A DNA stretch of 34,554 bases from Planctomycetota bacterium (GCA_016873165.1 VGXV01000033.1:1-34554), one strand, 5' to 3'; positions 3,228 through 34,554 are shown, counted from the first letter of the stretch. Notes: generated by a model not told the origin, from the letters alone. Program-made: numbers and translations.

Positions 3228-5309
3228 CTACCCATGCACCTTCATCAAATAAACCTCCCTATTCAACCTCACCCCCGCCGTTGGGCAAACGTTGACGCAT
3301 TCTTCACAGCCATCACAGTGGGTTTGGGCTAATGGGATGTTCATCATCGGAGCAATACGGGTGGAGAAACCACGCCCGACGTTGCCAAGGATGTGGCATT
3401 TCTTGATCTCGTCGCAGGCGCGCACACAAGCATTGCAATTGATGCATTTGTGGGTTTCTATCTTTATCTTTTCGTGAGAAAAATCGGTTTTGAAGGTGCG
3501 CATTGCGCCCTCGTATAGTTTCTGATCAGCATTGTATTTCTGAGAATGCTTTTTGAGCAGACAAATATCGGCTACGTTGCAGCCGCATTCCAGACAGCGG
3601 TTAGCTTCTGTGGCCATCTCGTTTTGTGTAAATCCTTGTTCTACTTCTTCAAAATTGCCTTCTCGTTTATTAACCGGCAGTAAATCGATCTCTCTGCGTG
3701 CGCCTGTTTTAAATGCTTTAAACATTTCCGGAGGTAAAGTATCCAGATCGCCCGGATAGGAACTAAAGCGTACTTCTTCACCAACAACCGCTGCCCCTGC
3801 AAATAACTGGTTAATGGACTGGGCAACCTTTCTCCCATCGGCCACGGCGCGCACGGCGAGATCTGGGCCATTGTAACAGTCTCCGGCAACAAAGATTTTT
3901 GGATTGCCAACGGTTTGATAGGTCTTTCCTTTTATATCAAATAAGCCCCATTTATTTACAGAAATGCTTTTTACAAAAGAAAAATCCGTCTTCTGGCCGA
4001 TGGCCATAATGATTGAGTCTGCTTCAATGGAAAATTCGCTGCCTTCTTTAACTACAGGTCGCCTTCTCCCGCTTTCGTCTGGTTCGCTCAACTCCATTCT
4101 TACGCAGGTAATTTTTAGTCCCTTACCTGATTTTTCTATCTTTGTAGGATTGGTCAATACCTGAATATCCACCCCTTCGTCTTTTGCATCGCGGACTTCG
4201 GCATGGTGCGCAGGCATTTCTTTTTCTGTTCGCCGGTATACTATCGTTGCTTTTGCTCCGAGTCTTACAGAAGCCCTGGCGGCATCCATCGCAGTGCTTC
4301 CTCCCCCTGCTACTACAACCCGCTTCCCGACATTTACCGTTTCATATTTCGCCAGTTTTTCCAGCAAATCGATACCGGAGAGAACTCCCGGCAAATCTTC
4401 GCCTTCTATTTTCATTGACGATGCTTTGGAAGCCCCTACCGCCAGGAGCACGGCATCGGAATTTTTCATAATTGTGTCAAAATCAATATCTTTCCCCACT
4501 TCCGTATTGTATTGAACGTTTATGCCCAATTGTTCTATTATGGCATCGCCTTCTAAGTCCATAACATTTTCAGGAAGCCGGTAGTATGGGATTCCGTAAC
4601 GGAGCATTCCTCCGTGTTTCGGGTGCCGTTCATATATCGTTACTTCATGCCCCTGTAATCTAAGATAGTATGCCGCGGAAAGTCCGGCAGGTCCAGCGCC
4701 TATAATCGTCACCTTTTTGCCGGTAGATTTTTGCGGAGGTTTCGGCAGGAAAGGACCGCCCTGTTTTTCTTCCATTTCAGCGATAAAACGTTTTTGTATG
4801 CCAATTAATACTGCCTTGTCAACCTTTTGACGGCGACAGACTGTTTCGCACGGCCTCGGACAGACACGGCCCAAAACGTTTGGAAAGGGAACCTTTTCCC
4901 TTATAAGATTTGCGGCTTCTTTGTAAAGTCCCCTAGCTTCCAAAAAGAGGAAACCCTGTATATCGATATTTGCGGGGCATCCCTTTTGATTACACGGGGC
5001 GTAACAATCCCCAAAATGATCGGAAAGCAGCAGGTCTAATGATGCCTTCCGCGATTCACTGACTTTATTATTTTCCAGTTCCACCACCATGCCATTTTCA
5101 AGTTTTGTGGAGCAGGCAGGAACCATTCCCCCGCGCCCACTTTTCAGTTCTACGGTACAAACCCAACAACCGGCATAATGTGATAATTTATCGTTATGGC
5201 AAAGTGTCGGAATTTCCACACCAAGTTTTTTCGCGGCATCCAAAATAGTTGTGCCCGTATCGAACTGGTGCGGCTTTCCATCAATGGTCACATTAACTTT
5301 ATTTGACAT
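3228..5309 (-). CDS. NfnB/GltD-like flavoprotein with NuoG-type and ferredoxin domains
   Basis: This is a 693-residue fusion. Residues 1-75 form a [2Fe-2S] ferredoxin (Cys37, 48, 51, 66). Residues 95-175 carry the GltD/NfnB N-terminal cluster cysteines (102, 106, 111, 150, 154, 158). Residues 198-530 are the two-dinucleotide flavoprotein core, with FAD motif GAGPAGLSAAYY, NADPH-type motif GGGSTAMDAARAS and the closing FAD motif GDCYNGPDLAVRA. The C-terminus has CLECGC and two [4Fe-4S] motifs (CINCNACVRAC, CDGCEECVNVCP). With the NuoE- and NuoF-like genes upstream, this matches the layout of Bfu/Stn-type transhydrogenases, where the NfnB-like subunit handles NADP(H) and the NuoF-like subunit NAD(H). 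The complex would be cytoplasmic. The gene follows the NuoF-like gene by 2 bases. Alternatives are a formate-dehydrogenase-linked module or a stand-alone NAD(P) oxidoreductase. Domain calls are firm; the bifurcating role is inferred. Confidence 0.9.
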   Translation of the reverse strand: MSNKVNVTIDGKPHQFDTGTTILDAAKKLGVEIPTLCHNDKLSHYAGCWVCTVELKSGRGGMVPACSTKLENGMVVELENNKVSESRKASLDLLLSDHFGDCYAPCNQKGCPANIDIQGFLFLEARGLYKEAANLIREKVPFPNVLGRVCPRPCETVCRRQKVDKAVLIGIQKRFIAEMEEKQGGPFLPKPPQKSTGKKVTIIGAGPAGLSAAYYLRLQGHEVTIYERHPKHGGMLRYGIPYYRLPENVMDLEGDAIIEQLGINVQYNTEVGKDIDFDTIMKNSDAVLLAVGASKASSMKIEGEDLPGVLSGIDLLEKLAKYETVNVGKRVVVAGGGSTAMDAARASVRLGAKATIVYRRTEKEMPAHHAEVRDAKDEGVDIQVLTNPTKIEKSGKGLKITCVRMELSEPDESGRRRPVVKEGSEFSIEADSIIMAIGQKTDFSFVKSISVNKWGLFDIKGKTYQTVGNPKIFVAGDCYNGPDLAVRAVADGRKVAQSINQLFAGAAVVGEEVRFSSYPGDLDTLPPEMFKAFKTGARREIDLLPVNKREGNFEEVEQGFTQNEMATEANRCLECGCNVADICLLKKHSQKYNADQKLYEGAMRTFKTDFSHEKIKIETHKCINCNACVRACDEIKKCHILGNVGRGFSTRIAPMMNIPLAQTHCDGCEECVNVCPTAGVRLNREVYLMKVHG

Positions 5310-5311
5310 GG

Positions 5312-7096
5312 TTATCCCTTAAAAATAGCATTAAATTTACAAACTTCATAACACATTCCACACTTAATACAGAGTTTCTGATCAATATGATGTACCTTTT
5401 TAGTCTCTCCCGATATGGCATTAACAGGACAGTTTTTAAAGCATAGGTGGCAGCCAGTACAATCTTTTTCAATAACAGAAAAGTTAATCAAATCTTTACA
5501 GACAGCCGCCCTGCATTTTTTATCTTTAATATGTTCTTCGTATTCGTCTCTGAAATATTTGATCGTTGTAACGATGGGATTTGGGGCTGTTTTGCCAAGC
5601 CCGCAGAGAGAAAGGTCTTTTACTTTCGCCGAAAGATCCTCCAATTCCTTTAAGTCATCCATACTGCCTTTTCCGGCGCTGATTTTTTCTAGTATTTCCA
5701 GTAATCGCATCGTTCCGACACGGCAGAAGGTACATTTCCCGCAAGATTCTTTTTGCGTAAAAGTCAGGAAAAATTTTGCCACATCCACGATACAGGTATC
5801 TTCATCCATGACCACCATGCCACCAGAACCCATAATTGCGCCTGTCGCGGCAATGCTTTCATAATCTACCGGTGTATCAAGCAAATTTTCCGGAACACAA
5901 CCACCGGAAGGTCCGCCCAATTGAACAGCCTTAAATGGTTTTCCTGAAGAGGTGCCTCCCCCTATGGTATAGATAATATCGCGCAAAGGAATACCCATAT
6001 CCACTTCGACGAGGCCGCCCTTGGCAATCTTTCCCGCTACGGAAAATACCTTTGTACCTTTACTTTTTGCGGTACCGTAAGAGGCATAAGCCGCGGAGCC
6101 ATTATTAATGATCCATGGGACTGAGGCCAGGGTTTCTACGTTATTAATATTTGTAGGATATTTCCAGAGTCCCGATACGGCGGGGAATGGAGGTCTTAAC
6201 CGGGGATTTCCCCGTTCTCCTTCAATGGAAGCAATAAGCGCAGTTTCTTCGCCGCATACAAATGCGCCTGCACCTTCTTTGATTTTCAGATGAAATGAAA
6301 AATCGGTATTGAGTATCTTATCTCCCAGAAAATTTCTTTCCGTTGCCTGGGCAATAGCTATTTTCAGACGCTTTATCGCCAGCGGATACTCGGCGCGCAC
6401 ATAAATATAACCATAGTGTGCTCCAATTGCATAACCCCCTATAATTAACCCTTCAATCACCCTGTGCGGGTCGCTTTCCAGCACCGCGCGATCCATAAAC
6501 GCGCCAGGGTCTCCCTCATCGGCATTGCAAATCATATATTTCTTTTCCGCCTGACTGTTTCTGGCAAATTGCCATTTGGTGCCTGTTGGAAATCCAGCGC
6601 CGCCGCGACCTCTCAGGCCAGATGCCTTCATTTCCTCGATTACCTGCTCGGGTGTCATTGAGGTTAAAACCTTTTTAATAGCCATGTAGCCTCCCTTTTC
6701 TAAATAGGGAGCAATGTCATCAGGGTCAATAACCCCGCAATTTTCAAGAACTATCTTGTGTTGTTTTAAACGAAAACTTTCCTTTTTGTCCGGTTTACGG
6801 GAATCTTCAATAACAAATTTTTCGTCTATTGATTTCCGGGTCAGGAGCGGCTCAAGCACTTTGTCTACATCTTTTTTATGGATGTTTCCCAGCATCAGGT
6901 GATCGCCGTCCGGGTAAAATACTTCCATGATAGGTTCTTTAAAACACATGCCGTTGCATGATGTATGGCTTAATTTGGTATTGGCGTGACTTTTTGTTTT
7001 TGCGGCCAATTCTTCATAGAGGTCTTTGGCACCGGCCGCTATGCCACAGCTTCCCAAACCCACTACGAGTCGGATATGCCCATTATTCTTTCCCAT
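5312..7096 (-). CDS. NuoF/HydB-like NADH-binding subunit
   Basis: The protein has 594 residues. The N-terminal thioredoxin-like [2Fe-2S] domain has Cys17, 47 and 51 (GSCGIAAGA, TSCNGMC). The NuoF core shows the NADH loop GRGGAGFPTGTKW and the FMN motif CNADEGDPGAFMDR, then an SLBB domain. Its [4Fe-4S] site is ESCGKCTFCRVGT plus a distal Cys in SLCGLG. A CRAAVC motif matches the extra zinc-like site of BfuB/HydB subunits. The C-terminal 2x[4Fe-4S] ferredoxin reads CTGCHLCFKNCP and CIKCGMCYEVC. These last two elements separate it from plain complex I NuoF and point to the bifurcating HydABC/Stn family. It overlaps the NuoE-like gene by 14 bases and is followed at 2 bases by the NfnB-like gene. 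Confidence 0.92.
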   Translation of the reverse strand: MGKNNGHIRLVVGLGSCGIAAGAKDLYEELAAKTKSHANTKLSHTSCNGMCFKEPIMEVFYPDGDHLMLGNIHKKDVDKVLEPLLTRKSIDEKFVIEDSRKPDKKESFRLKQHKIVLENCGVIDPDDIAPYLEKGGYMAIKKVLTSMTPEQVIEEMKASGLRGRGGAGFPTGTKWQFARNSQAEKKYMICNADEGDPGAFMDRAVLESDPHRVIEGLIIGGYAIGAHYGYIYVRAEYPLAIKRLKIAIAQATERNFLGDKILNTDFSFHLKIKEGAGAFVCGEETALIASIEGERGNPRLRPPFPAVSGLWKYPTNINNVETLASVPWIINNGSAAYASYGTAKSKGTKVFSVAGKIAKGGLVEVDMGIPLRDIIYTIGGGTSSGKPFKAVQLGGPSGGCVPENLLDTPVDYESIAATGAIMGSGGMVVMDEDTCIVDVAKFFLTFTQKESCGKCTFCRVGTMRLLEILEKISAGKGSMDDLKELEDLSAKVKDLSLCGLGKTAPNPIVTTIKYFRDEYEEHIKDKKCRAAVCKDLINFSVIEKDCTGCHLCFKNCPVNAISGETKKVHHIDQKLCIKCGMCYEVCKFNAIFKG

Positions 7097-7541
7097 ATTT
7101 TTTCAACATGCTCCTTACTTTTGATGATGACAGGCTGCCATAAACGTCCTCATTGATCATAACTACGGGGGCAAGAGAGCAACAACCAAGGCATGCCACC
7201 GTTTCCATGGAAAACTCTCCATCTTCTGTTGTCTGATCCATATTAATACTCAGTTGATCTTTAAGCGCTACAATAGTAATATCAGCGCCCTTCACATGAC
7301 ATGCAGTGCCTTTGCAGACCTTAATGGCATTTTTCCCTTTGGGAGTTAGTTTGAACTGTGAATAAAAGGTGGCTACGCCGAAAAGATGTGATTTCGTTAT
7401 TTCCGACTCTTCGCAGACCTTGCTCAGAACGTCCAGAGGAAGGTATCCATAGTCATTTTGGATGGCCTGTAAAATAGGAATAGCTGCTTCCTTTGTGCTG
7501 CCGTAATTTTTTAAATATTTTTGTACGTTAGATTGAGACAT
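7083..7541 (-). CDS. NuoE/HydC-like [2Fe-2S] subunit
   Basis: This 152-residue protein has the standard length and fold signature of the 24-kDa NuoE family: an N-terminal helical part with LQAIQNDYGYLP and SHLFGVATFYSQF, then a thioredoxin-like domain binding one [2Fe-2S] through Cys76, 81, 117 and 121 (CKGTAC, CLGCC). It is the first gene of the three-gene minus-strand operon and overlaps the NuoF-like gene by 14 bases. In this family the subunit relays electrons to or from the FMN-bearing NuoF-like partner. It is transcribed divergently from dnaG, and the 222-base gap holds promoters for both. The ribosome site is weak (GGTG, 5-6 bases before the ATG). Confidence 0.92.
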   Translation of the reverse strand: MSQSNVQKYLKNYGSTKEAAIPILQAIQNDYGYLPLDVLSKVCEESEITKSHLFGVATFYSQFKLTPKGKNAIKVCKGTACHVKGADITIVALKDQLSINMDQTTEDGEFSMETVACLGCCSLAPVVMINEDVYGSLSSSKVRSMLKKYGKE

Positions 7542-20694: not shown

Positions 20695-20769
20695 ATGGTA
20701 AACGTTGAAAAGTTAAAGAACGTCAGTAAATTGTTGGTTGAAAAATATGGAAAATCAGGAAAAAACTAA
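20695..20769 (+). CDS. Possible 24-residue leader peptide
   Basis: ATG at 20695 opens a 24-codon frame (MVNVEKLKNVSKLLVEKYGK and four more residues), with AGGA 8 bases upstream, a better ribosome site than that of the NTPase gene behind it. It stops at 20767-20769, 19 bases before the preferred NTPase start at 20789, so re-initiation or coupling is possible. The peptide is lysine-rich and helical. It may equally be a decayed gene start or chance. I recognise no family. Confidence 0.35.
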   Translation: MVNVEKLKNVSKLLVEKYGKSGKN

Positions 20770-20788
20770 CGTATTACGAAATATTTTT

Positions 20789-21319
20789 ATGAGCATAAAG
20801 AAGAACATTTTTTTGACCGGCGCCCCTTCTTCTGGAAAGACGACGGTCATAAAAAAGATAATTGCCAGACTGGATTTTCCTGCCAACGGGTTTTATACGG
20901 AAGAAGAGAGGATAGAAGGGAAAAGGGTTGGGTTTTTAATGAAGACCCTTGATGGGAAAAAGGGATATCTTGCGCATCAGGATATTGTTTCGGGTTTCCA
21001 TATAAGGAGATATGGAGTGAGCATTGAGAATATTGAAACCATTGCGGTTCCCTCAATTGCTCCGGTAAAGAATCATTGTGTTATACTTGATGAAATAGGA
21101 AAGATGGAATGTTTTTCCGGCGTATTTAAGCAGGCTGCCCTTCACGCCCTTGACTCTCCAAATATTGTTATCGGCACAATTACCTTCGGAGGAGATGAAT
21201 TTATTCAGGAAATTAAAAAAAGAAATGATATAGAAATAATCGAAGTAACAATGGAGAACCGGGATTCATTGCCGGAGATAATAGTGCAGAAAATTTTATC
21301 TGTCCGCCGTTTTCAATAG
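20789..21319 (+). CDS. THEP1-type nucleoside-triphosphatase
   Basis: This is a 176-residue P-loop NTPase of the THEP1/NTPase_1 family, found mainly in archaea and thermophilic bacteria and shown to hydrolyse ATP, GTP and other NTPs. Walker A is LTGAPSSGKTTVIKK at the N-terminus. Walker B is the family hallmark VILDEIGKMECF. The FYTEEERIEGKRVGF strand pair also fits. The start at 20789 (MSIKKNIFLTG) gives the usual family length; in-frame TTG at 20738 or ATG at 20747 would add 14-17 residues. None has a good ribosome site. A TATAAT at 20624-20629 may be its -10 but lacks a clear -35. It converges on the methyltransferase gene with an 11-base gap. Confidence 0.88.
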   Translation: MSIKKNIFLTGAPSSGKTTVIKKIIARLDFPANGFYTEEERIEGKRVGFLMKTLDGKKGYLAHQDIVSGFHIRRYGVSIENIETIAVPSIAPVKNHCVILDEIGKMECFSGVFKQAALHALDSPNIVIGTITFGGDEFIQEIKKRNDIEIIEVTMENRDSLPEIIVQKILSVRRFQ

Positions 21320-21330
21320 GCGCGGAGTGA

Positions 21331-22182
21331 TTAAGAATAAATCCAGATGATTTTTGAAGAGTCAATTTCGAATTTGTGCGCTCTTTTCTTTATTTCTGCT
21401 GTCACAATTTCAATATATTCCGGCAGTATGGCATCAAACTTTTTATGCATGAAAAATGAAATAAAATTTTTGGAGAGGTCGCTTAACCCATTATTTCCGA
21501 ACAATTCTTCCTGTGGCGTAATGGAATGCGCTTCATCAAAATCGTAGGGAATATTAAATTTCTGTAACACCTGGAAAATTTCCTCCGCGCAGATTGTTGA
21601 GTCAATAATGCCGATATAGTCCTTAAACCTGTTTTGAATAAAATGAGAAATATTGTTTTTATCCCTGATAATAATACAGGCCAGTCCTTTAGGCGCAAGC
21701 AGCCTTCTTATTTTTACAAGAGAATTTTTGTCAGCATCGTCACTATTCCAATCTATGCATCCGTATAAGGTATGAATACACAAAATAAAATGGTACGTTT
21801 TGTTGATATCTATTGTGTCGAAATCTCCCAAAAAAACCTCATTCAGATTTTCTGAAAGCACCGATTGATATTTTCTATATTGATATTTTGATATGTCGTT
21901 GTAATCTATTCTGATTTGATTTGGTTGTTCGAGAAGTGATTGTAAGATAAATTCCGATCTCTTCCCGTTTCCTCCGCCAATATCCAGCAGGGTAAATTGT
22001 TTGCTGTAAAATTCTTTTCCGAAATGTTCCGGTAATTTTGCTGCAATTTTTTCCCTGTAGATTATGGTATTTGCGATGGTATTTCTTTCAAAAAGATCAT
22101 GAACGGAAGAAAACCATTGCCCTTCAGTATAAAGTTCTCTGTATTGTTTAGGATAATTTTCCTTGGATACGTGAGAAAACAT
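21331..22182 (-). CDS. SAM-dependent methyltransferase
   Basis: The protein has 283 residues, with a class I methyltransferase core at about residues 60-180. Motif I is FTLLDIGGGNGKRSEFIL, an acidic residue follows in RIDYNDIS, and FLGDFDTIDI and YHFILCIHTLYGCIDW mark motifs II-IV. The C-terminal 100 residues are specific and not recognised. The early part (ELYTEGQWFSSVHDLFERN) resembles small-molecule methyltransferases, but no substrate can be named. There is no signal peptide. The gene lies 84 bases downstream of the RNA ligase gene on the same strand, so the two may be co-transcribed. That would make an RNA substrate conceivable, though this is speculation. Confidence 0.8.
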   Translation of the reverse strand: MFSHVSKENYPKQYRELYTEGQWFSSVHDLFERNTIANTIIYREKIAAKLPEHFGKEFYSKQFTLLDIGGGNGKRSEFILQSLLEQPNQIRIDYNDISKYQYRKYQSVLSENLNEVFLGDFDTIDINKTYHFILCIHTLYGCIDWNSDDADKNSLVKIRRLLAPKGLACIIIRDKNNISHFIQNRFKDYIGIIDSTICAEEIFQVLQKFNIPYDFDEAHSITPQEELFGNNGLSDLSKNFISFFMHKKFDAILPEYIEIVTAEIKKRAHKFEIDSSKIIWIYS

Positions 22183-22266
22183 TTTTTTATTCAGTCCTTC
22201 ATTACGATTTCAGACTTGAAATAGACGGGGGTTTTGCGTTCATGGGCGGTTCCAATTAATAAAAAT

Positions 22267-23391
22267 TCAATCCACATGGGATGTTCCCCCTAAATGGCTT
22301 TGAAGGATTTCGTATGAGGCATAACACTTCCTGGCAAAACGCACATGCCAGTAAGAATTTATTTTTTCCTGAGAGAGCACTTCGAAGTTTACCTTGCATC
22401 TTTGCAGGTGACCAATCATCCGCTGCACGTTTTCTTCTTTACGAAAACGCAGGAGAAACGTTTCTCTGATAAGTTCTCCCCGCGCTGCCTTTGAAACGCT
22501 TTCGTAAATGGGCTTTAACAATACTTCGCCAAGGGCAGTAAAATTTTTATGGTTTAATTCATGGAGTTGTTCGTAACTATATATAGCCGCCCGTATTATA
22601 CGGTGGGTAAAGTATTCGGAGGGTAGCTCCGCCATGAGTGGCGCGGTGACACGAATGTCGCGCAGACAGGAACCAAAGGTGACATATTTCAGTGTCTTTT
22701 CCTCTCTGCGTGTAGGCTTGAATACGATGCCCTCGCTGCCCGCATCGTTTAATTCTTTGATAATCTCTTTTAAGGAGGAGATATCTGAAGACGAAAAACA
22801 CCCGAATCTCCTTACGGTGGGCATGGAGTACTTATCGAAGATTCGTAAGCGTTCTTCGATGGGAATGTTTTCCGGGGTATTTTTCACCATTAAATCAAAG
22901 GTAAAAAAGCGGATATCTTCCTGAACGTACGGGGGATGTTCGATGTTGTACGGATTATCCGGTCCGGCAAACTCCCCGCAAACGATCAGATCGGGATATT
23001 CGTCGAATATTTTTTGTACGTCCAGAAAATCAGCGATCCTGTCCGTAGAAAACGGACATACATAGGCGCCGCGGGAAAAGGCAATCACTTTTCCCTGAAT
23101 GCGCACGATTCTCACATTATACCCATCAACTTTTTCCTCGACATAGAATGGTTGTGTATACGCATTCTTTAATCCATTTTCCAGATGCAAAATCCTCGCA
23201 ATCCTTGGAAAATCAAAAAGAATACCATCTTCGGTGACTATTGACCCTTTCCCAAGGGGGCCGATCTTACGCATTACCCGATAATAGAAGACACCATCGT
23301 ATTCTTCCCTGGCAACATCATGGTTATCAACAGATTCCTGCCATCGGTCTTCTGTAATGCCTGCTTTTTTTATAATTTCGGGTAAGGACAT
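22267..23391 (-). CDS. ATP-dependent RNA ligase, Rnl3/Pab1020 type
   Basis: This 374-residue nucleotidyltransferase joins RNA 5'-phosphate and 3'-hydroxyl ends through a ligase-adenylate. The nucleophile is Lys87 in motif I, EEKVDGYNVRI. Further ligase motifs are VIAFSRGAYVCPF, VCGEFAG (motif III), IRFFTFDLM (IIIa), AGSEGIVFKPT (motif IV) and KYVTFGS (motif V). The long helical C-terminus (LRDIRVTAPLMAELP...YFTHRIIRAA) is typical of the archaeal Pab1020/MTH1221 homodimeric family, not of T4 Rnl1/2 or DNA ligases. Length is right for the family. Such enzymes are uncommon in bacteria, pointing to transfer from archaea or a thermophile. A methyltransferase gene follows; the THEP1 gene is convergent beyond it. 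Confidence 0.88.
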   Translation of the reverse strand: MSLPEIIKKAGITEDRWQESVDNHDVAREEYDGVFYYRVMRKIGPLGKGSIVTEDGILFDFPRIARILHLENGLKNAYTQPFYVEEKVDGYNVRIVRIQGKVIAFSRGAYVCPFSTDRIADFLDVQKIFDEYPDLIVCGEFAGPDNPYNIEHPPYVQEDIRFFTFDLMVKNTPENIPIEERLRIFDKYSMPTVRRFGCFSSSDISSLKEIIKELNDAGSEGIVFKPTRREEKTLKYVTFGSCLRDIRVTAPLMAELPSEYFTHRIIRAAIYSYEQLHELNHKNFTALGEVLLKPIYESVSKAARGELIRETFLLRFRKEENVQRMIGHLQRCKVNFEVLSQEKINSYWHVRFARKCYASYEILQSHLGGTSHVD

Positions 23392-29235: not shown

Positions 29236-29979
29236 ATGAAAAAATATGTATTCATTATACTGGCAATAGCACTCCAAACACACATTATGTCTCCGCTGTT
29301 AGCGGGAGATAGTCCGGAATCTGGTACAGAAACTTTTTTAGTAGATGCAAAGTGTTCGAAGTGCCATACGATTAAACGTATCTTTATTCACGCCCGAACG
29401 GAAGAAGAATGGCACAGCATTATTCAGAAAATGATGGATAAAGTTCCGGAATGGATTAAACAGGAAGAAGCAAAGCAGATTTTTCATGAAATCGTGACTC
29501 ACTGGCAGGAACGTGTTCGGAATATGATTGCGGAGAGAAAGGATTACGATGACAACCGGCTGTTATTTATCGATCGCTGCACAATGTGCCATACCGTTAA
29601 CCGGATTTTAAAAAATAACAAGTCCCCTGATGAATGGAAGGAAACAGTAGAACGGATGCGTCTGGAAGCGGGCGAAGAGTATATCACAAAAGAAGACGCA
29701 AGCCGCATAGCAACCTTTCTTTCCGAGAGGTCGGAAATGTTAACGGAAGATGCCGGAAGTGCGTTGTTTGTCGCCAAGTGCCTTGTCTGCCACCCTCCGG
29801 GTGAAAAGATTCTCTTGGAACGACACAACAGAAAGGAATGGGAAGACATTGTGAGAGACAGGCAGCAATATGCAAGAAACTCAACACAGAAGATAATTAT
29901 CGGAAATGAAGAGGCAGAGTTGATTGTGGAGTTATTGACAAAAACTCAGGGGATAGATACTGACAAGGGAGTCCCTTGA
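29236..29979 (+). CDS. Periplasmic triheme cytochrome c
   Basis: The 247-residue protein has a signal peptide (residues 1-23, ending LLAG). Three heme c motifs stand at Cys40 (CSKCH), Cys115 (CTMCH) and Cys182 (CLVCH). Each starts a similar module of about 70 residues with a CxxCHx6-7 region, then a Glu/Asp-Glu-Trp helix (EEEWHSII, PDEWKETV, RKEWEDIV). The first two continue to a Met-rich spot suitable as distal ligand (KMMD, ERMR). The repeat plan resembles tandem small class I-like domains as in quinohemoprotein amine dehydrogenase alpha subunits. GGAGG precedes the start by about 9 bases. Its partner is unknown; the neighbouring minus-strand operon is rich in multiheme cytochromes. Confidence 0.87.
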   Translation: MKKYVFIILAIALQTHIMSPLLAGDSPESGTETFLVDAKCSKCHTIKRIFIHARTEEEWHSIIQKMMDKVPEWIKQEEAKQIFHEIVTHWQERVRNMIAERKDYDDNRLLFIDRCTMCHTVNRILKNNKSPDEWKETVERMRLEAGEEYITKEDASRIATFLSERSEMLTEDAGSALFVAKCLVCHPPGEKILLERHNRKEWEDIVRDRQQYARNSTQKIIIGNEEAELIVELLTKTQGIDTDKGVP

Positions 29980-30014: not shown

Positions 30015-30704
30015 TCAACATGAAACACTGTTAAAAAAATTATACACCTTCTGTGAAACAACATCCTCTTTTCCCCTGTAGAAATGGTCGCTGTTTTCTA
30101 TTAACTCTATTGTCTTTGGCTGGGGTATTTTTTCCAGACCTTGCAGCGTATCCTCCTCTGTTGTTGCGAAATCATTTTGGTTATAGATGAATAATTTTGG
30201 TTTTTTACATCCTTTTAAAAAATTGAGATCGTACTTTCCAAAAGGTGTGGAAACTGAGGCGAATGCCTGCACGTTACCATGTGCTGCCGCCACTCTCATG
30301 CCGATGATACCTCCGAATGAATATCCGGCAATGAAATACATAGTTTGTCTGCCTGTTTGTGCCGTTAAATAATTGAATGCCGAACAGGCGTCCGTTACCG
30401 CATCAGTATAATTTTCACTGCTCATTGTTTTTTCCCAGTAGTGAAATTTTTCAGCAATGTCTTTTGCCTCGCACTCACTGTTACCAACACCGCGGTAATT
30501 GAAACGAAGCGAGATAAAACCGGCATCTGCCGAAACACGGGCAAGGTTTGTTATGATGTTATTTTCCATGTCGCCTCCGAGAGTCGGGTGGGGAGAACAC
30601 AAAAGGATTGCTTTGGAAGGAGACAAATCTTCATTGTATGCCAATACTCCTTCCAGAGAAACCTTGCCGGAGGCAAAACACACATGTTCTTCTGTTATAT
30701 TCAT
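30015..30704 (-). CDS. Alpha/beta hydrolase
   Basis: The 229-residue protein is of the COG2945-like small alpha/beta-hydrolase group. The nucleophile elbow is IAGYSFGGIIGM. The catalytic acid is likely the Asp in YNQNDFATTEE. The catalytic His lies in IENSDHFYRGKED. The oxyanion-side motif is LLCSPHPTLGGDMEN, with the typical HPxxGG sequence. No signal peptide is seen, so it is cytoplasmic. It overlaps the hexaheme cytochrome gene by four bases (ATGA), making it the last cistron of the cytochrome operon, an unexpected partner. Substrate is unknown; an esterase or thioesterase activity is the default guess. Confidence 0.88.
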   Translation of the reverse strand: MNITEEHVCFASGKVSLEGVLAYNEDLSPSKAILLCSPHPTLGGDMENNIITNLARVSADAGFISLRFNYRGVGNSECEAKDIAEKFHYWEKTMSSENYTDAVTDACSAFNYLTAQTGRQTMYFIAGYSFGGIIGMRVAAAHGNVQAFASVSTPFGKYDLNFLKGCKKPKLFIYNQNDFATTEEDTLQGLEKIPQPKTIELIENSDHFYRGKEDVVSQKVYNFFNSVSC

Positions 30705-31408
30705 TCTTTTGCGGAAATGCCCTTTTCTTTTTTAACTCGTTCCAGGAGTGTCCGTGATAAACGGATATTATGAATGCCGTACTGCTGCAACTGTTTCAGA
30801 TGCGATTGCATTTTTGAGTTTTTCTTGTTTTCATGCATCATCGCTTGTGTTTCTTCCTGCAATACTTCTTTCCATTTGTCATAAAGTAAACCATAATCGC
30901 TGTTGTGACACTCTATGCAAACATTGCGAATATCCTGAAAAAGAAAAGCATCTTTCGCCTGTTTATGACAATCCGTGCACTGCACTGCTTTATACATCCA
31001 ATCGGGTATTTTCGTGCCGGAACAATTCATATCAATCTGAAATGTGCCGTTTCTGTAGTCGTTTATTTCGAAATGACATTTCATACACGCTTCATTGTCT
31101 GCTTCTTTATGATGGCATTTTTTACAGTCGTTTTCTTCAATTATTAAACCGCCATGCGCTTTCGTATTTACCGGATCGTTATTATGGCATTCGCAGCACT
31201 CCATATTTTGTGAGGACGAATGGCTCTTATGCCAAAAAACTTCTTCTTTATATTTTGTCCGGTAATTCAGGTAGTTTACGTGGCATCTGTCAATGCACGA
31301 TCCGGAAGGATATACGATTGAAGCCTGTGGCGTTAACAGGTTCTCTTTGCCAGATACAAGCGAAGTGAACAAAAAGACTAAAAAACAAGTGAATATAAAT
31401 TTCTTCAT
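30701..31408 (-). CDS. Hexaheme cytochrome c with a CX3CH motif
   Basis: The 235-residue exported protein has a signal peptide (about residues 1-20, LVSG). Five canonical motifs start at Cys71 (CCECH), Cys95 (CKKCH), Cys108 (CMKCH), Cys144 (CTDCH) and Cys164 (CIECH). A sixth, expanded site is CIDRCH at Cys38-His43, a CX3CH arrangement. Extra His residues (H60, H63, H85, H100) can serve as distal ligands. The C-terminal 65 residues are helical and heme-free (QSHLKQLQQYGIHNIRLSRT). It overlaps the undecaheme gene upstream and the hydrolase gene downstream by 4 bases each. It is likely a periplasmic (or anammoxosome-lumen) electron carrier paired with the undecaheme protein. Whether the CX3CH site binds heme cannot be told from sequence. 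Confidence 0.88.
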   Translation of the reverse strand: MKKFIFTCFLVFLFTSLVSGKENLLTPQASIVYPSGSCIDRCHVNYLNYRTKYKEEVFWHKSHSSSQNMECCECHNNDPVNTKAHGGLIIEENDCKKCHHKEADNEACMKCHFEINDYRNGTFQIDMNCSGTKIPDWMYKAVQCTDCHKQAKDAFLFQDIRNVCIECHNSDYGLLYDKWKEVLQEETQAMMHENKKNSKMQSHLKQLQQYGIHNIRLSRTLLERVKKEKGISAKE

Positions 31409-32661
31409 GTATTTTCTTGCAAAATCAATGTAAGTTTCGTGATGCTGTATTCCAGCAGATCCTTTATGTATTTAATGTTGTGCGCGCCGTTACTGCCGTC
31501 TTCCCGGATAAAATAATAATTCGATTCCGCTTCTGCAATAAACGGGTTTACCTCAGGAAGAGAGAGCTTTTTTGCCTTCTTCAAAAGAATCTTCAATAAT
31601 CTCATCTGTTTCGCAACAAAGGACATTTGTTCTGATAGTATTTTATCGAATCCTTTGTCATGGCAATTGTTGCATACCACAGGCTCTACTCTTGATAACA
31701 ATTCGTTCTTATGGCATGCCGAGCAATTGAGTGTTGCGATATACATGGGATCTGGTTCTCCCTCTATGCCTTTGCCGCCAGTTCCCGCCATGATCATATA
31801 TTGCGTTTTGTAAAGAGAGAGGTCGAAGGTGAGATGTTGAATATGAGAAAGGACAAAACCGTCCTTTTTTATCGAAGTGTGTGCAATGCTGTTGTGGCAT
31901 GGGACACACGATGTTTTATGCTTAATAATATGAGTCTCATGCATATCCTGCGCAGCGTAATTCTCCGGGATAGTTTGATGGCATGCATGGCAATTTTTCC
32001 TTACAACGGTTCCTTTTCCCAGAACAACAGCAAAATGGCATTCAGAGCAACTTACGCTCTCCTTTTTTTCATAACCCAGATGGTCAAACATGTTGTTGTA
32101 TATTTGAATGGTTTTTTTTACGGAATCGTGACACAAGGAACATTCGGAAATAGGGCGTTTCTCCTTTGTGAGCAACTGCGGCGTATCGGTAAAATGACAT
32201 ATATTACAGGTATCGACATCTGTCTCAAAATGCTTTTCGCCATGAAGATTTGAATGGCAGGAAATACAACGCAGGGTAAGATTGTCCGGATAATCTTTCC
32301 TATGTGTGGTATGCCGGAAATCCTTTGTTCCTTTAAACTGAATTGATTTTTCTGCAAGTTTGTGTGGAGGATGGCACTGCTCCGACGTGCAATGTTCATC
32401 AGTCATATCGACTGCCATTATTTTCATGCTCCCGGAATTTTCATGGGTATGGCAGTCGATGCAGGTAATATTTCCTGTAAAAATATTTCTGCAGGCATTG
32501 TTGAAAGCAACATCGGAATGGCACTTGCCGCAATATTGCACGTCCTTCACCTTTGTAACAGTAAAAAACAATGCGCCCGTAGCAATTGCAATGGCAATGA
32601 TTGCAGATATTGCCAGCCGGATTGCCAGTCCTTTATTTAATTTTTTTACTTCTTCAAACAT
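31405..32661 (-). CDS. Membrane-anchored undecaheme cytochrome, NapC/NirT-like N-terminus
   Basis: The protein has 418 residues. A single uncleaved N-terminal membrane helix (about 13-36) is followed directly by the first heme motif (YCGKCH), the layout of NapC/NirT/NrfH quinol dehydrogenases. Ten CXXCH motifs start at Cys44, 67, 132, 152, 174, 205, 224, 252, 313 and 330. An eleventh, CTSEQCH (Cys91-His97), is a CX4CH site. About 85 C-terminal residues have no heme and are helical (KQMRLLKILLKKAKKLSLPE). It probably takes electrons from the quinol pool or the cytochrome b-like partner and passes them outward along the heme chain. It lies 18 bases after the pentaheme gene and overlaps the hexaheme gene by four. 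Confidence 0.9.
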   Translation of the reverse strand: MFEEVKKLNKGLAIRLAISAIIAIAIATGALFFTVTKVKDVQYCGKCHSDVAFNNACRNIFTGNITCIDCHTHENSGSMKIMAVDMTDEHCTSEQCHPPHKLAEKSIQFKGTKDFRHTTHRKDYPDNLTLRCISCHSNLHGEKHFETDVDTCNICHFTDTPQLLTKEKRPISECSLCHDSVKKTIQIYNNMFDHLGYEKKESVSCSECHFAVVLGKGTVVRKNCHACHQTIPENYAAQDMHETHIIKHKTSCVPCHNSIAHTSIKKDGFVLSHIQHLTFDLSLYKTQYMIMAGTGGKGIEGEPDPMYIATLNCSACHKNELLSRVEPVVCNNCHDKGFDKILSEQMSFVAKQMRLLKILLKKAKKLSLPEVNPFIAEAESNYYFIREDGSNGAHNIKYIKDLLEYSITKLTLILQENT

Positions 32662-32679
32662 AATGGATTCTTTGTAATG

Positions 32680-33651
32680 CTATAAATGACCATATATCTT
32701 TTCCGCCAGGATGAAAGAAGTGTCCCGTTCGAGCGATGTTCGTAACATTTGTGCCCTGATGGAGGAAACATTCTCTTTGAGTATAAAATCGAATTGAATA
32801 ATTCTTTTTTCCCCATAGTTCAGCGCGGTTTTCAATTCGACAAAAAGGCTCGTCTCTCTTGCATCTACCACTTGCCCCGTTTTATTTAACAACTCTATCT
32901 TTACAAGTACTTCCCGGTATCCGTAGTCGCCTGTCGGAATACTGTGCGGGATACCGGCATTGGTAATTTCAAGCGCGCCTTCGATAGTACTTTCCGATTG
33001 AACTATGTTGGCAAAAGAAAGCAATAAATGATCTTCGTCAACCGGAATTAAATCCTGATACGAAAAGAGATGCCGTTTGCCTTCTCTCTTTGGATATATC
33101 TTTTGCCATGGTTCATCCTGAATCAGTTTCCGAAAGATTTTTGGCATGTGGCAATCCTGGCAGGTCTTTTTCTCATCCATGCCTTTTATTTCCTGCCATG
33201 TGGTATATGTGCCAATGTGGCATTTTCCGCAGAGTTCGCTGGTCTTATAGAACATATCCTTTTCGGCAAACGGATGCGGGGCGCGGGCAGGAGTCGGCCC
33301 GGCAAGGGTACAGTCGTTTAAATGACAGCCGTTGCAGTTGACTCCCTCTTCCACATGGATATCTCTCGGTTCGATGTTTCCATTCGTAAAAATAGTTTTC
33401 GGCGAGTGGCAGCCGATACAAAAAGTAAAGGAATAATCAAATGTTTCTTCCTTAAAGGAATTGCTGGTATAACTGCCGGCGTGGGGCGAATTGTTCCACT
33501 CTTTGTAGATATCAATATGACAATCGCCGCATTTTTCTGTTTTTGGCGACTTCATGCCCGTTTCTACCAACTCAGGATAGATAATACACCCGTTGATAAG
33601 GAATATCACCGGAAGGAAAAAAACAAAAATAACGAGATGGTTTATTTTCAT
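32680..33651 (-). CDS. Pentaheme cytochrome c lipoprotein
   Basis: I start this gene at 33651 (MKINHLVIFVFFLPVIF) because it opens with a proper signal sequence and lipobox-like INGC22; the longer frame from 33741 overlaps the upstream gene and gives no signal. It has 323 residues. Heme motifs are at Cys41 (CGDCH), 78 (CIGCH), 106 (CNGCH), 141 (CGKCH) and 164 (CQDCH). The CGDCHIDIYKEWNNSPHAGSY opening is typical of cytochrome c554-like multiheme proteins. Residues 190-323 form a beta-rich domain without heme (GALEITNAGIPHSIPTGDYG), seen in decaheme-like relatives. It starts 10 bases after the stop of the cytochrome b-like gene. Confidence 0.87.
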   Translation of the reverse strand: MKINHLVIFVFFLPVIFLINGCIIYPELVETGMKSPKTEKCGDCHIDIYKEWNNSPHAGSYTSNSFKEETFDYSFTFCIGCHSPKTIFTNGNIEPRDIHVEEGVNCNGCHLNDCTLAGPTPARAPHPFAEKDMFYKTSELCGKCHIGTYTTWQEIKGMDEKKTCQDCHMPKIFRKLIQDEPWQKIYPKREGKRHLFSYQDLIPVDEDHLLLSFANIVQSESTIEGALEITNAGIPHSIPTGDYGYREVLVKIELLNKTGQVVDARETSLFVELKTALNYGEKRIIQFDFILKENVSSIRAQMLRTSLERDTSFILAEKIYGHL

Positions 33652-33661
33652 CGCACTGTTC

Positions 33662-33976
33662 TCAGGACCGGTTCGAATCCTGCCTGCGTTTCCAGCGGAA
33701 AATAAAAGGGATGAAGACAAAGAACAAAGAACCTGCCACAAGGATAAAGATAAAGAGACCCTCGTTCTGAACGGCCTTCTTTAACAGATAACCGGGATAG
33801 AAAAACCAAGGAATATGTTCCGGTTTGTTTACAGGATGAAAAGGTAGCGGAAAAAACAGAACGGCAGCGAAATCCAGGACAACAAGGAAGCAGCCGACAA
33901 TAATGTACCGGAACATTTCGTTCGGGAAAAAAGGTTCCAGCATTTCCGGTCGTTTGTTTTTTGTGTAATCTTTCAT
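33662..33976 (-). CDS. Cytochrome b subunit IV-like small membrane protein
   Basis: The 104-residue protein has two hydrophobic helices (about residues 27-46 and 76-96). The stretch from LEPFFPNEMFRYIIVG through FFPLPFHPVNKPEHIPWFFY resembles the C-terminal half of cytochrome b (subunit IV, PetD-like), where FFPxx opens the first helix and a P-x-x-I-x-P-W/E-W-Y-F motif sits in the loop. No heme-ligating His pair is expected in subunit IV. No cytochrome b N-terminal half or Rieske protein gene lies next to it here, so it is an orphan. The start at 33976 (MKDYTKNKRPEM) suits the predicted transcript start but lacks a ribosome site; a TTG at 34033 is too close to the promoter. Confidence 0.6.
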   Translation of the reverse strand: MKDYTKNKRPEMLEPFFPNEMFRYIIVGCFLVVLDFAAVLFFPLPFHPVNKPEHIPWFFYPGYLLKKAVQNEGLFIFILVAGSLFFVFIPFIFRWKRRQDSNRS

Positions 33977-34053
33977 AACGGTAAGTATTGTATATCTTTT
34001 TGAAAACAAGAGAACTGCTGTGCCAATTTTCAATTTCTGAATTGTAATAGTTT

Positions 34054-34069
34054 AGCAATAGATGTGCCA
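34054..34069 (-). promoter_or_regulatory. Sigma54 (-24/-12) promoter of the cytochrome operon
   Basis: On the minus strand the sequence is TGGCACATCTATTGCT (34069 to 34054). It matches the sigma54 consensus TGGCAC-N5-TTGCW exactly, with ten bases between the GG and GC elements. Transcription would start near 34043, leaving a leader of about 65 bases to the first gene at 33976. A second TTGGCACA lies at 34018-34025 without a -12 element. Confidence 0.75.
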
Positions 34070-34156
34070 AGTATTTTTTATGTGGTGTGATTATGGCAAA
34101 AATGGAGGTAATACAATGATTAACATAATATAGTGTATACGATATTGCGAAAATTT

Positions 34157-34203
34157 TTACATTCTTATGTAATATTTACAATCCCTCTCTGTAAAAATTA
34201 CAT
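34157..34203. promoter_or_regulatory. TGTAA half-site array, candidate enhancer (UAS)
   Basis: Five half-sites of the type TTACAT/ATGTAA/TTTACA/TGTAAA occur within 47 bases: TTACAT-N4-ATGTAA at 34157-34172, TTTACA-N9-TGTAAA at 34175-34195, and a further TTACAT at 34198-34203. They lie about 90-150 bases upstream of the sigma54 promoter, the usual distance for an enhancer-binding activator. The protein that binds is unknown, and the region is AT-rich, so some half-sites could be chance. Confidence 0.45.
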
Positions 34204-34554
34204 GTTCTTCCTATTTTAGTGCATAGGCTAGTTTTACAAAATAGATGGGGCAATTAAATCCAGACAAGAAATCCTCCGAGAGTTTTTCGTCACTATGATA
34301 GTAAGGTAGGCAAAGCATTTTCTACATAAATTTTAACTGACGGCGGGCGGATTCAGATTTGCAATCTGAATCCGCCGCGTATATGGAAAAACGCTCCCTT
34401 ATTCCGTCCCAATTTGGGACTACTAATCCTAAAACAAGCGTGATTTAACAATCTACACACAATGGGATAATATTTTGGACTATTATGCGTCTCTAAATGT
34501 ATTTTTTGTTTGTTTTGTTGCAAAAATACCTTACTAAAAAGAAAAACATTGTTA
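34204..34554. other. Window-end spacer without genes
   Basis: No open frame of note, RNA gene or terminator with a T-tract is visible in the last 350 bases. It holds one strong hairpin (34346-34376) and a short GTCCCAATTTGGGAC palindrome near 34407-34421. Confidence 0.6.
34346..34376. repeat. Perfect 14-bp hairpin
   Basis: GGCGGATTCAGATT and its exact complement are separated by TGC. It is GC-rich at the base and not followed by a T-run in either direction, which suggests a REP-type repeat or a structured transcript end more than a classic terminator. Confidence 0.6.

Follow-up and report, generated by a model that had tools for sequence, protein, structure and literature searches.

Rieske/cytochrome b complexes with multiheme cytochromes are already known in anaerobic ammonium-oxidizing (anammox) bacteria. 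The complexes of Kuenenia stuttgartiensis encoded by Kuste4569-4574 and Kustd1480-1485 combine a b6-type cytochrome b carrying the heme cn/ci cysteine with a subunit IV-like protein and multiheme c-type cytochromes (PMC12954380), and in addition have a Rieske protein, a NAD(P) oxidoreductase and a subunit IV of five helices. The use of menaquinol is also proposed for the anammox multihemes of kuste2854-2856, which form an electron transfer module in the cluster of hydrazine synthase; this cluster also contains a sigma54 regulator gene, kuste2857 (PMC12053348). In Geobacter, menaquinol is oxidized at the inner membrane by the bc-type multiheme systems CbcL and CbcBA, and CbcBA is conditionally induced (PMC12307469). 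Here, we describe a five-gene operon for multiheme cytochromes in a 34,554-nucleotide stretch of planctomycete DNA (VGXV01000033.1, hereafter the window), which makes up all of contig C33 in a 4.05-Mb genome (G000) of the anammox genus Candidatus Kuenenia and ends at position 34554. With a probability of roughly 60%, we read this operon as the subunit IV and c-type half of an anammox b6-multiheme complex that lacks the Rieske protein and the quinol-oxidizing Qo site, and that is regulated on demand through sigma54 and an NtrC-type regulator.

Gene content and layout of the operon

Gene order, heme motifs, motif losses, the architecture of enhancer and sigma54 promoter and the proximity of the regulator were all computed. 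The operon consists of the following genes:

33662-33976, minus strand: g1, subunit IV-like membrane protein of 104 aa (two predicted helices, sub-threshold Pfam match)
32680-33651, minus strand: g2, pentaheme c-type cytochrome of 323 aa and probable lipoprotein (five CXXCH motifs, a conserved Cys22, a C-terminal beta-sandwich)
31405-32661, minus strand: g3, 11-heme cytochrome of 418 aa (ten CXXCH and one CX4CH motif, one N-terminal membrane helix)
30701-31408, minus strand: g4, hexaheme cytochrome of 235 aa (five CXXCH and one CX3CH motif, a signal sequence)
30015-30704, minus strand: g5, alpha/beta hydrolase of 229 aa (Hydrolase_4 and Abhydrolase_1 matches above cut-off)

A first-pass annotation of the window had described five tightly packed genes with two ATGA overlaps, 22 heme sites and an alpha/beta hydrolase as the last gene product. 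The layout agrees with this in every respect: the genes share one strand, the gaps from g1 to g5 are 10, 18, -4 and -4 bp, both of the latter being ATGA overlaps, the heme sites are divided as 5 in g2, 11 in g3 and 6 in g4, and g5 passes the cut-off for both hydrolase families.

The two helices of g1 are hydrophobic, and its N-terminal motif LEPFFPNE is shared. In g2, the lipobox-like Cys22 is invariant in six orthologs, and the C-terminal beta-sandwich, with strands at 209-321, is the sole confident part of the AlphaFold2 model. Profile searches with g3 returned NrfH for the N-terminus (NrfH residues 13-74, 5.8e-5) and, for the C-terminus, MccA and the structure 6i5b, which we take to be the surface cytochrome OcwA; a DGSxGxH signature is common to the C-terminus of g3 and both of these proteins. 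PF03264, the NapC-type heme domain, was not reported for g3, and the homolog of g3 in the planctomycete G322, described below, matches it. The first heme motif of g3 reads CGKCHSD in the window, without the methionine of the NrfH type (CXXCHxM), whereas the orthologs of Scalindua have CHSMQP or CHSMEP here.

The 22 hemes, some of them in a probable lipoprotein, and the resemblance of the g3 C-terminus to 6i5b would suit an outward conduit to extracellular acceptors, and a path from the membrane outward had indeed been proposed in the first-pass annotation. However, neither a porin nor a large outer-surface cytochrome can be made out among the operon genes of the loci examined, as judged by gene size and heme count without a barrel predictor. 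The outward path is therefore unsupported, and we regard a conduit as very unlikely.

Conservation of the operon and its probable cytochrome b6 partner

The operon had also been annotated as having no known counterpart. This does not hold, since orthologous operons are present in other anammox genera and a homologous cluster that contains a Rieske gene is present in another planctomycete. The anammox relatives include K. hertensis (L003, 82% identical), Jettenia, Loosdrechtia and Scalindua. The order of the genes for subunit IV, the 5-heme, 11-heme and 6-heme cytochromes and the hydrolase (g1-g5), whose conservation the first-pass annotation had proposed as a test, is kept across these genera and largely preserved across the Brocadiales. 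Exceptions are G010, in which g4 is displaced and preceded by a duplicated g2, and a few loci in which g5 is missing or distant; g5 is the final operon gene in most anammox type I loci. Full-length orthologs of g3 occur all through the family of the window and the Scalindua-like families, and some near-complete genomes are without one. A universal quinone reductase for the electrons of hydrazine was considered and set aside, because the near-complete anammox-family genomes G006 and G017 gave no match.

Heme counts are nearly invariant among the orthologs, with 5 in g2, 10+1 in g3 and 5+1 in g4, the last being 11+1 in Scalindua-like genomes. In Loosdrechtia, g3 and g4 are fused in a single open reading frame (ORF) of 671 aa, which suggests that the two proteins may be physically associated. 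At loci of a second type, g2 is absent or its place is taken by an octaheme protein; in two of these (L042:5542-7467 and L050:5702-7567), the eight-CXXCH protein that replaces g2 has an N-terminal region resembling a beta-domain.

Outside Kuenenia, the gene directly upstream of g1 usually encodes a cytochrome b6 of about 190 aa. The Kuenenia ortholog (77% identity) is found at a separate locus (G000:C18:14913-15446), where its neighbors are reductase, SCP2, MMPL exporter, AMP-ligase-like, U32 and aminotransferase genes. At domain level, this locus (L135:687-2920 and L079:9644-17828) comprises an NAD_binding_4 reductase, SCP2, DUF5666, the MMPL exporter, an AMP-binding-like protein, a double U32 and a class III aminotransferase, and the neighbors of b6 possibly represent a cluster for the biosynthesis and export of a lipid-like product. 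The aminotransferase was suspected to be broken, which was rejected as its 396 residues align without a break. In Jettenia and Loosdrechtia, the same biosynthesis/export-type genes precede b6 and are continuous with the cytochrome genes, so that these gene orders are read most simply as an ancestral cluster that came apart in Kuenenia. At its head, the Kuenenia b6 locus has the palindrome pair and the type of sigma54 box that also precede the window operon.

Considered on its own, g3 could be an ordinary quinol dehydrogenase of the NapC/NrfH type that feeds g2 and g4, with g1 as a remnant and the distant b6 uninvolved, as the NrfH match at its N-terminus and the lack of an adjacent b6 in Kuenenia would allow. 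However, most other genera have an adjacent b6, the Kuenenia b6 stands under the same enhancer-type promoter, g1 is retained at 81-83% identity within the genus, and the first heme motif of the Kuenenia g3 is without the NrfH-type methionine. We consider this explanation unlikely.

Proposed loss of the Rieske protein and the Qo site

The b6 orthologs have kept all four heme histidines, which form the two bis-His sites of a four-helix b6, as well as the heme-ci cysteine. The cd1 segment of the Qo site is deleted from b6 in the Brocadiaceae, the family to which the window belongs, and degraded in the Scalindua-like genomes; all three other cytochromes b of Kuenenia have this segment, with WDQ. 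PEWY is the motif of the b6f subunit IV, and g1 has PWFF or a similar sequence at this position. A scan for Rieske motifs found none in the anammox operon loci examined and detected four positive controls.

Kuenenia has three Rieske proteins, all of which are encoded at other loci. They would be available to a Rieske/cytochrome b complex that still bifurcates with a borrowed Rieske protein, but the deletion of cd1 in the Brocadiaceae, the loss of PEWY and the absence of a Rieske gene from the operon loci examined all speak against this, and we judge it highly improbable. Membership of the operon in a known Rieske complex, of the Kustd1480 or Kuste4569 type, was likewise rejected because the Rieske-bearing loci are elsewhere.

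Beyond the order, relatives of g3 are found in other Planctomycetota. The cluster of the planctomycete G322 (locus L231) encodes a Rieske protein, a b6 with LPWTQLSYW in which cd1 is present, a subunit IV that reads KPEWYF and is fused to a domain with five hemes, a 10-heme protein, an 11-heme homolog of g3 and two 13-heme proteins. The anammox bc-type complex is read as having lost bifurcation because no Rieske gene was found at its loci and its Qo motifs are gone, both being kept in G322. From this comparison we infer that the anammox complex probably descends from a Rieske complex of the G322 kind and subsequently lost the Qo half.

Sigma54 promoter, enhancer pair and candidate regulator

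Three elements lie upstream of g1:

34054-34070, minus strand: sigma54 -24/-12 box TTGGCACATCTATTGCT with GG-N10-GC spacing
34168-34180, unstranded: proximal palindrome TGTAA-N3-TTACA, exactly matched, conserved with K. hertensis and separated from the sigma54 box by 97 bp
34190-34202, unstranded: distal palindrome TGTAA-N3-TTACA, exact match, the other half of a tandem enhancer-like pair

The exact sigma54 site that had been annotated at the head of the operon is confirmed by the box, which is an exact motif in a genome that has an RpoN gene, and a sigma54-type promoter is supported. The counterpart in K. hertensis is near-identical (TTGGCATATCTATTGCT). The pattern TTGGCAC-N5-TTGCW has six sites in the genome and none when reversed, compared to about 0.8 expected from base composition by a hand estimate. 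Besides RpoN, the genome encodes 23 strong matches to the sigma54-activator domain, and at the level of sequence sigma54 control of the operon is strongly supported. Both the enhancer pair (34168-34202), which spans 35 bp and as a whole is conserved with K. hertensis, and the cytochrome b6 partner lie beyond the region that the first-pass annotation covered.

The palindrome pair with its 22-bp spacing, searched for with at most one mismatch, is present in 19 of 39 genomes at 1-4 copies per genome, and the reversed control in none of the 39. A sigma54 box lies at 90-130 bp from 34 of the 43 pairs at the fetched loci, compared to 1.7% of random positions, with a hand-set score matrix that follows the general consensus and with some of the 43 pairs non-independent as they come from closely related genomes. 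The gaps between pair and box cluster at 96-97, 106-112 and 120-125 bp, with a single further gap of 130 bp; from group to group the distance is roughly one helical turn, which fits an activator that needs to face the polymerase.

In G000, three units are headed by the pair. Two are the window operon and the b6/biosynthesis locus, and the third is an operon (L136:6178-7961) for a CarboxypepD_reg protein with one CXXCH motif and for a protein that has a Reeler domain and a CX4CH motif. In G001, of the same genus, the CarboxypepD_reg gene that heads the pair-led operon is interrupted (L039:9836-13007); its parts, residues 1-114 and 113-383, are separated by about 2 kb, and between them the opposite strand has an ORF of 627 aa. 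In G016, G019, G021 and G023, most of which are without g3, the same enhancer/sigma54 arrangement heads a reductase together with a protein of 801 aa, and large sensor-looking proteins (L195-L205). A change of electron acceptor, which the first-pass annotation had offered as the trigger of expression, was a guess, and the same promoter type stands on the lipid-like biosynthesis/export locus and on signaling-type proteins.

An NtrC-type response regulator, with an adjoining histidine kinase, is encoded at G000:C18:29739-31082; its ortholog in G001 is 86% identical. Orthologs are found in 22 of the 39 genomes (E<=1e-150), in nine of them at most about 6 kb from the enhancer pair (G000, G020, G022, G013, G010, G021, G011, G026, G030) and in six near looser pairs (G012, G018, G007, G014, G005, G037). 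Pair and regulator occur together in 15 genomes, the pair alone in four, the regulator alone in seven and neither in 13 (Fisher p ~0.01, with phylogeny ignored). Judged by this proximity and co-occurrence, the histidine kinase/NtrC-type regulator most likely binds the tandem palindromes and activates the window operon and the b6 locus together. The probable control by a dedicated sigma54 regulatory system makes it likely that the complex is a special-purpose electron route used on demand.

Such a route might serve the adjoining biosynthesis/export locus, giving or taking electrons for a lipid-like product. In Jettenia and Loosdrechtia, the two sets of genes are joined without a break, and in Kuenenia both carry the same promoter type. 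However, the second-type loci hold b6 and multihemes without biosynthetic genes, which points to a more general redox role, and the regulated reductase occurs without g3 in G019, G021 and G023; a service to this locus is a doubtful explanation. Equally tentative is the wider proposal that a bc-type respiratory complex, once deprived of the Rieske protein and the Qo site, was recruited as a dedicated redox machine for lipid-like biosynthesis and export in anammox bacteria, under two-component and sigma54 control.

Proposed electron path and points against it

As to complex formation, electron path and regulator binding, we infer the following for a b6-multiheme complex without Rieske protein and Qo site. 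Menaquinone or menaquinol would react at the Qn face on the negative side (heme ci), and the two b hemes would carry electrons across the membrane. On the positive side, the electrons of the b hemes would be exchanged with the 11-heme anchor g3 and then with g2 and g4, or the path would run in reverse, and electron bifurcation would be absent. The histidine kinase and the NtrC-type regulator, acting at the tandem palindromes, would switch on the sigma54-RNA polymerase.

Several observations weigh against this reading. The parts of the complex are split between loci in Kuenenia, and their joint assembly is assumed. The annotation of the first gene as subunit IV-like is upheld by a match to the Pfam cytochrome b C-terminal/subunit IV family but not in strength, as this two-helix protein scores 16.9 bits and the cut-off is 20.7. 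The AlphaFold2 models of g2 and g3, based on 6 and 7 sequences, are poor, with a mean predicted local distance difference test (pLDDT) score of 46 and 43, respectively. Before g1 of G001, no sigma54 box can be recognized and only one palindrome is left. The subunit IV of Kuenenia's Rieske complexes is also without a strict PEWY (PWYF), so that this motif alone proves little and the argument for lost bifurcation is carried by the deletion of cd1 and the absence of the Rieske protein. Finally, the outside evidence comes from G322 as the single Rieske-bearing cluster examined in full.

Other features of the window

A gene of the window that is convergent to the operon (29236-29979) encodes a protein of 247 aa that has three CXXCH motifs and matches, in tandem, the heme domain of quinohemoprotein amine dehydrogenase; K. 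hertensis has a gene of equal length with three motifs at the matching position. The genes resembling NuoE/NuoF and the flavoprotein/ferredoxin gene at 3228-7541, located beside dnaG and a sigma70-family gene, do not amount to a full complex I. An NTPase_1 match and a Pab1020-type RNA ligase match, both of families mainly associated with archaea, are in close proximity at 20738-23391. For a plasmid origin, there was no match.

Comparison with known systems

In the literature searched, with few subscription papers among it, nothing specific was found on this operon, on anammox sigma54 regulons or on b6 complexes without a Rieske protein, and an earlier description is possible. An identical operon that had already been characterized, which the first-pass annotation had named as a point that would tell against its proposal, was not found there either.

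CbcBA needs a sigma54-type regulator. Compared by description, CbcL and CbcBA share with the proposed complex the bc-type multiheme oxidation of menaquinol but differ in gene content and organism, and the kuste2854-2856 module, compared in the same way, likewise has another gene content and is tied to hydrazine synthase. The quinol dehydrogenases NapC, NirT and NrfH resemble g3 in having a single N-terminal helix followed by heme motifs, and the NrfH match falls in this part, whereas g3 has 11 hemes and an extra C-terminal region, is without a reported PF03264 match and is accompanied by b6 and subunit IV. The G322 cluster has a homologous b6, a g1-like subunit IV and an 11-heme g3, but unlike the anammox loci it keeps the Rieske protein, cd1 and PEWY, and its 10- and 13-heme partners replace g2 and g4. 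The complexes of Kuste4569-4574 and Kustd1480-1485 are encoded at loci separate from the window operon, which in contrast to them has no Rieske gene at its locus, a two-helix subunit IV and no NAD(P) subunit.

The window operon and its b6 partner would thus add a fourth cytochrome b system, apparently without a Rieske protein, to those of K. stuttgartiensis (PMC12954380). The operator sequence and the candidate regulator gene together define a concrete anammox regulon, and the relative in G322, which has retained the Rieske parts, makes the loss of bifurcation traceable.

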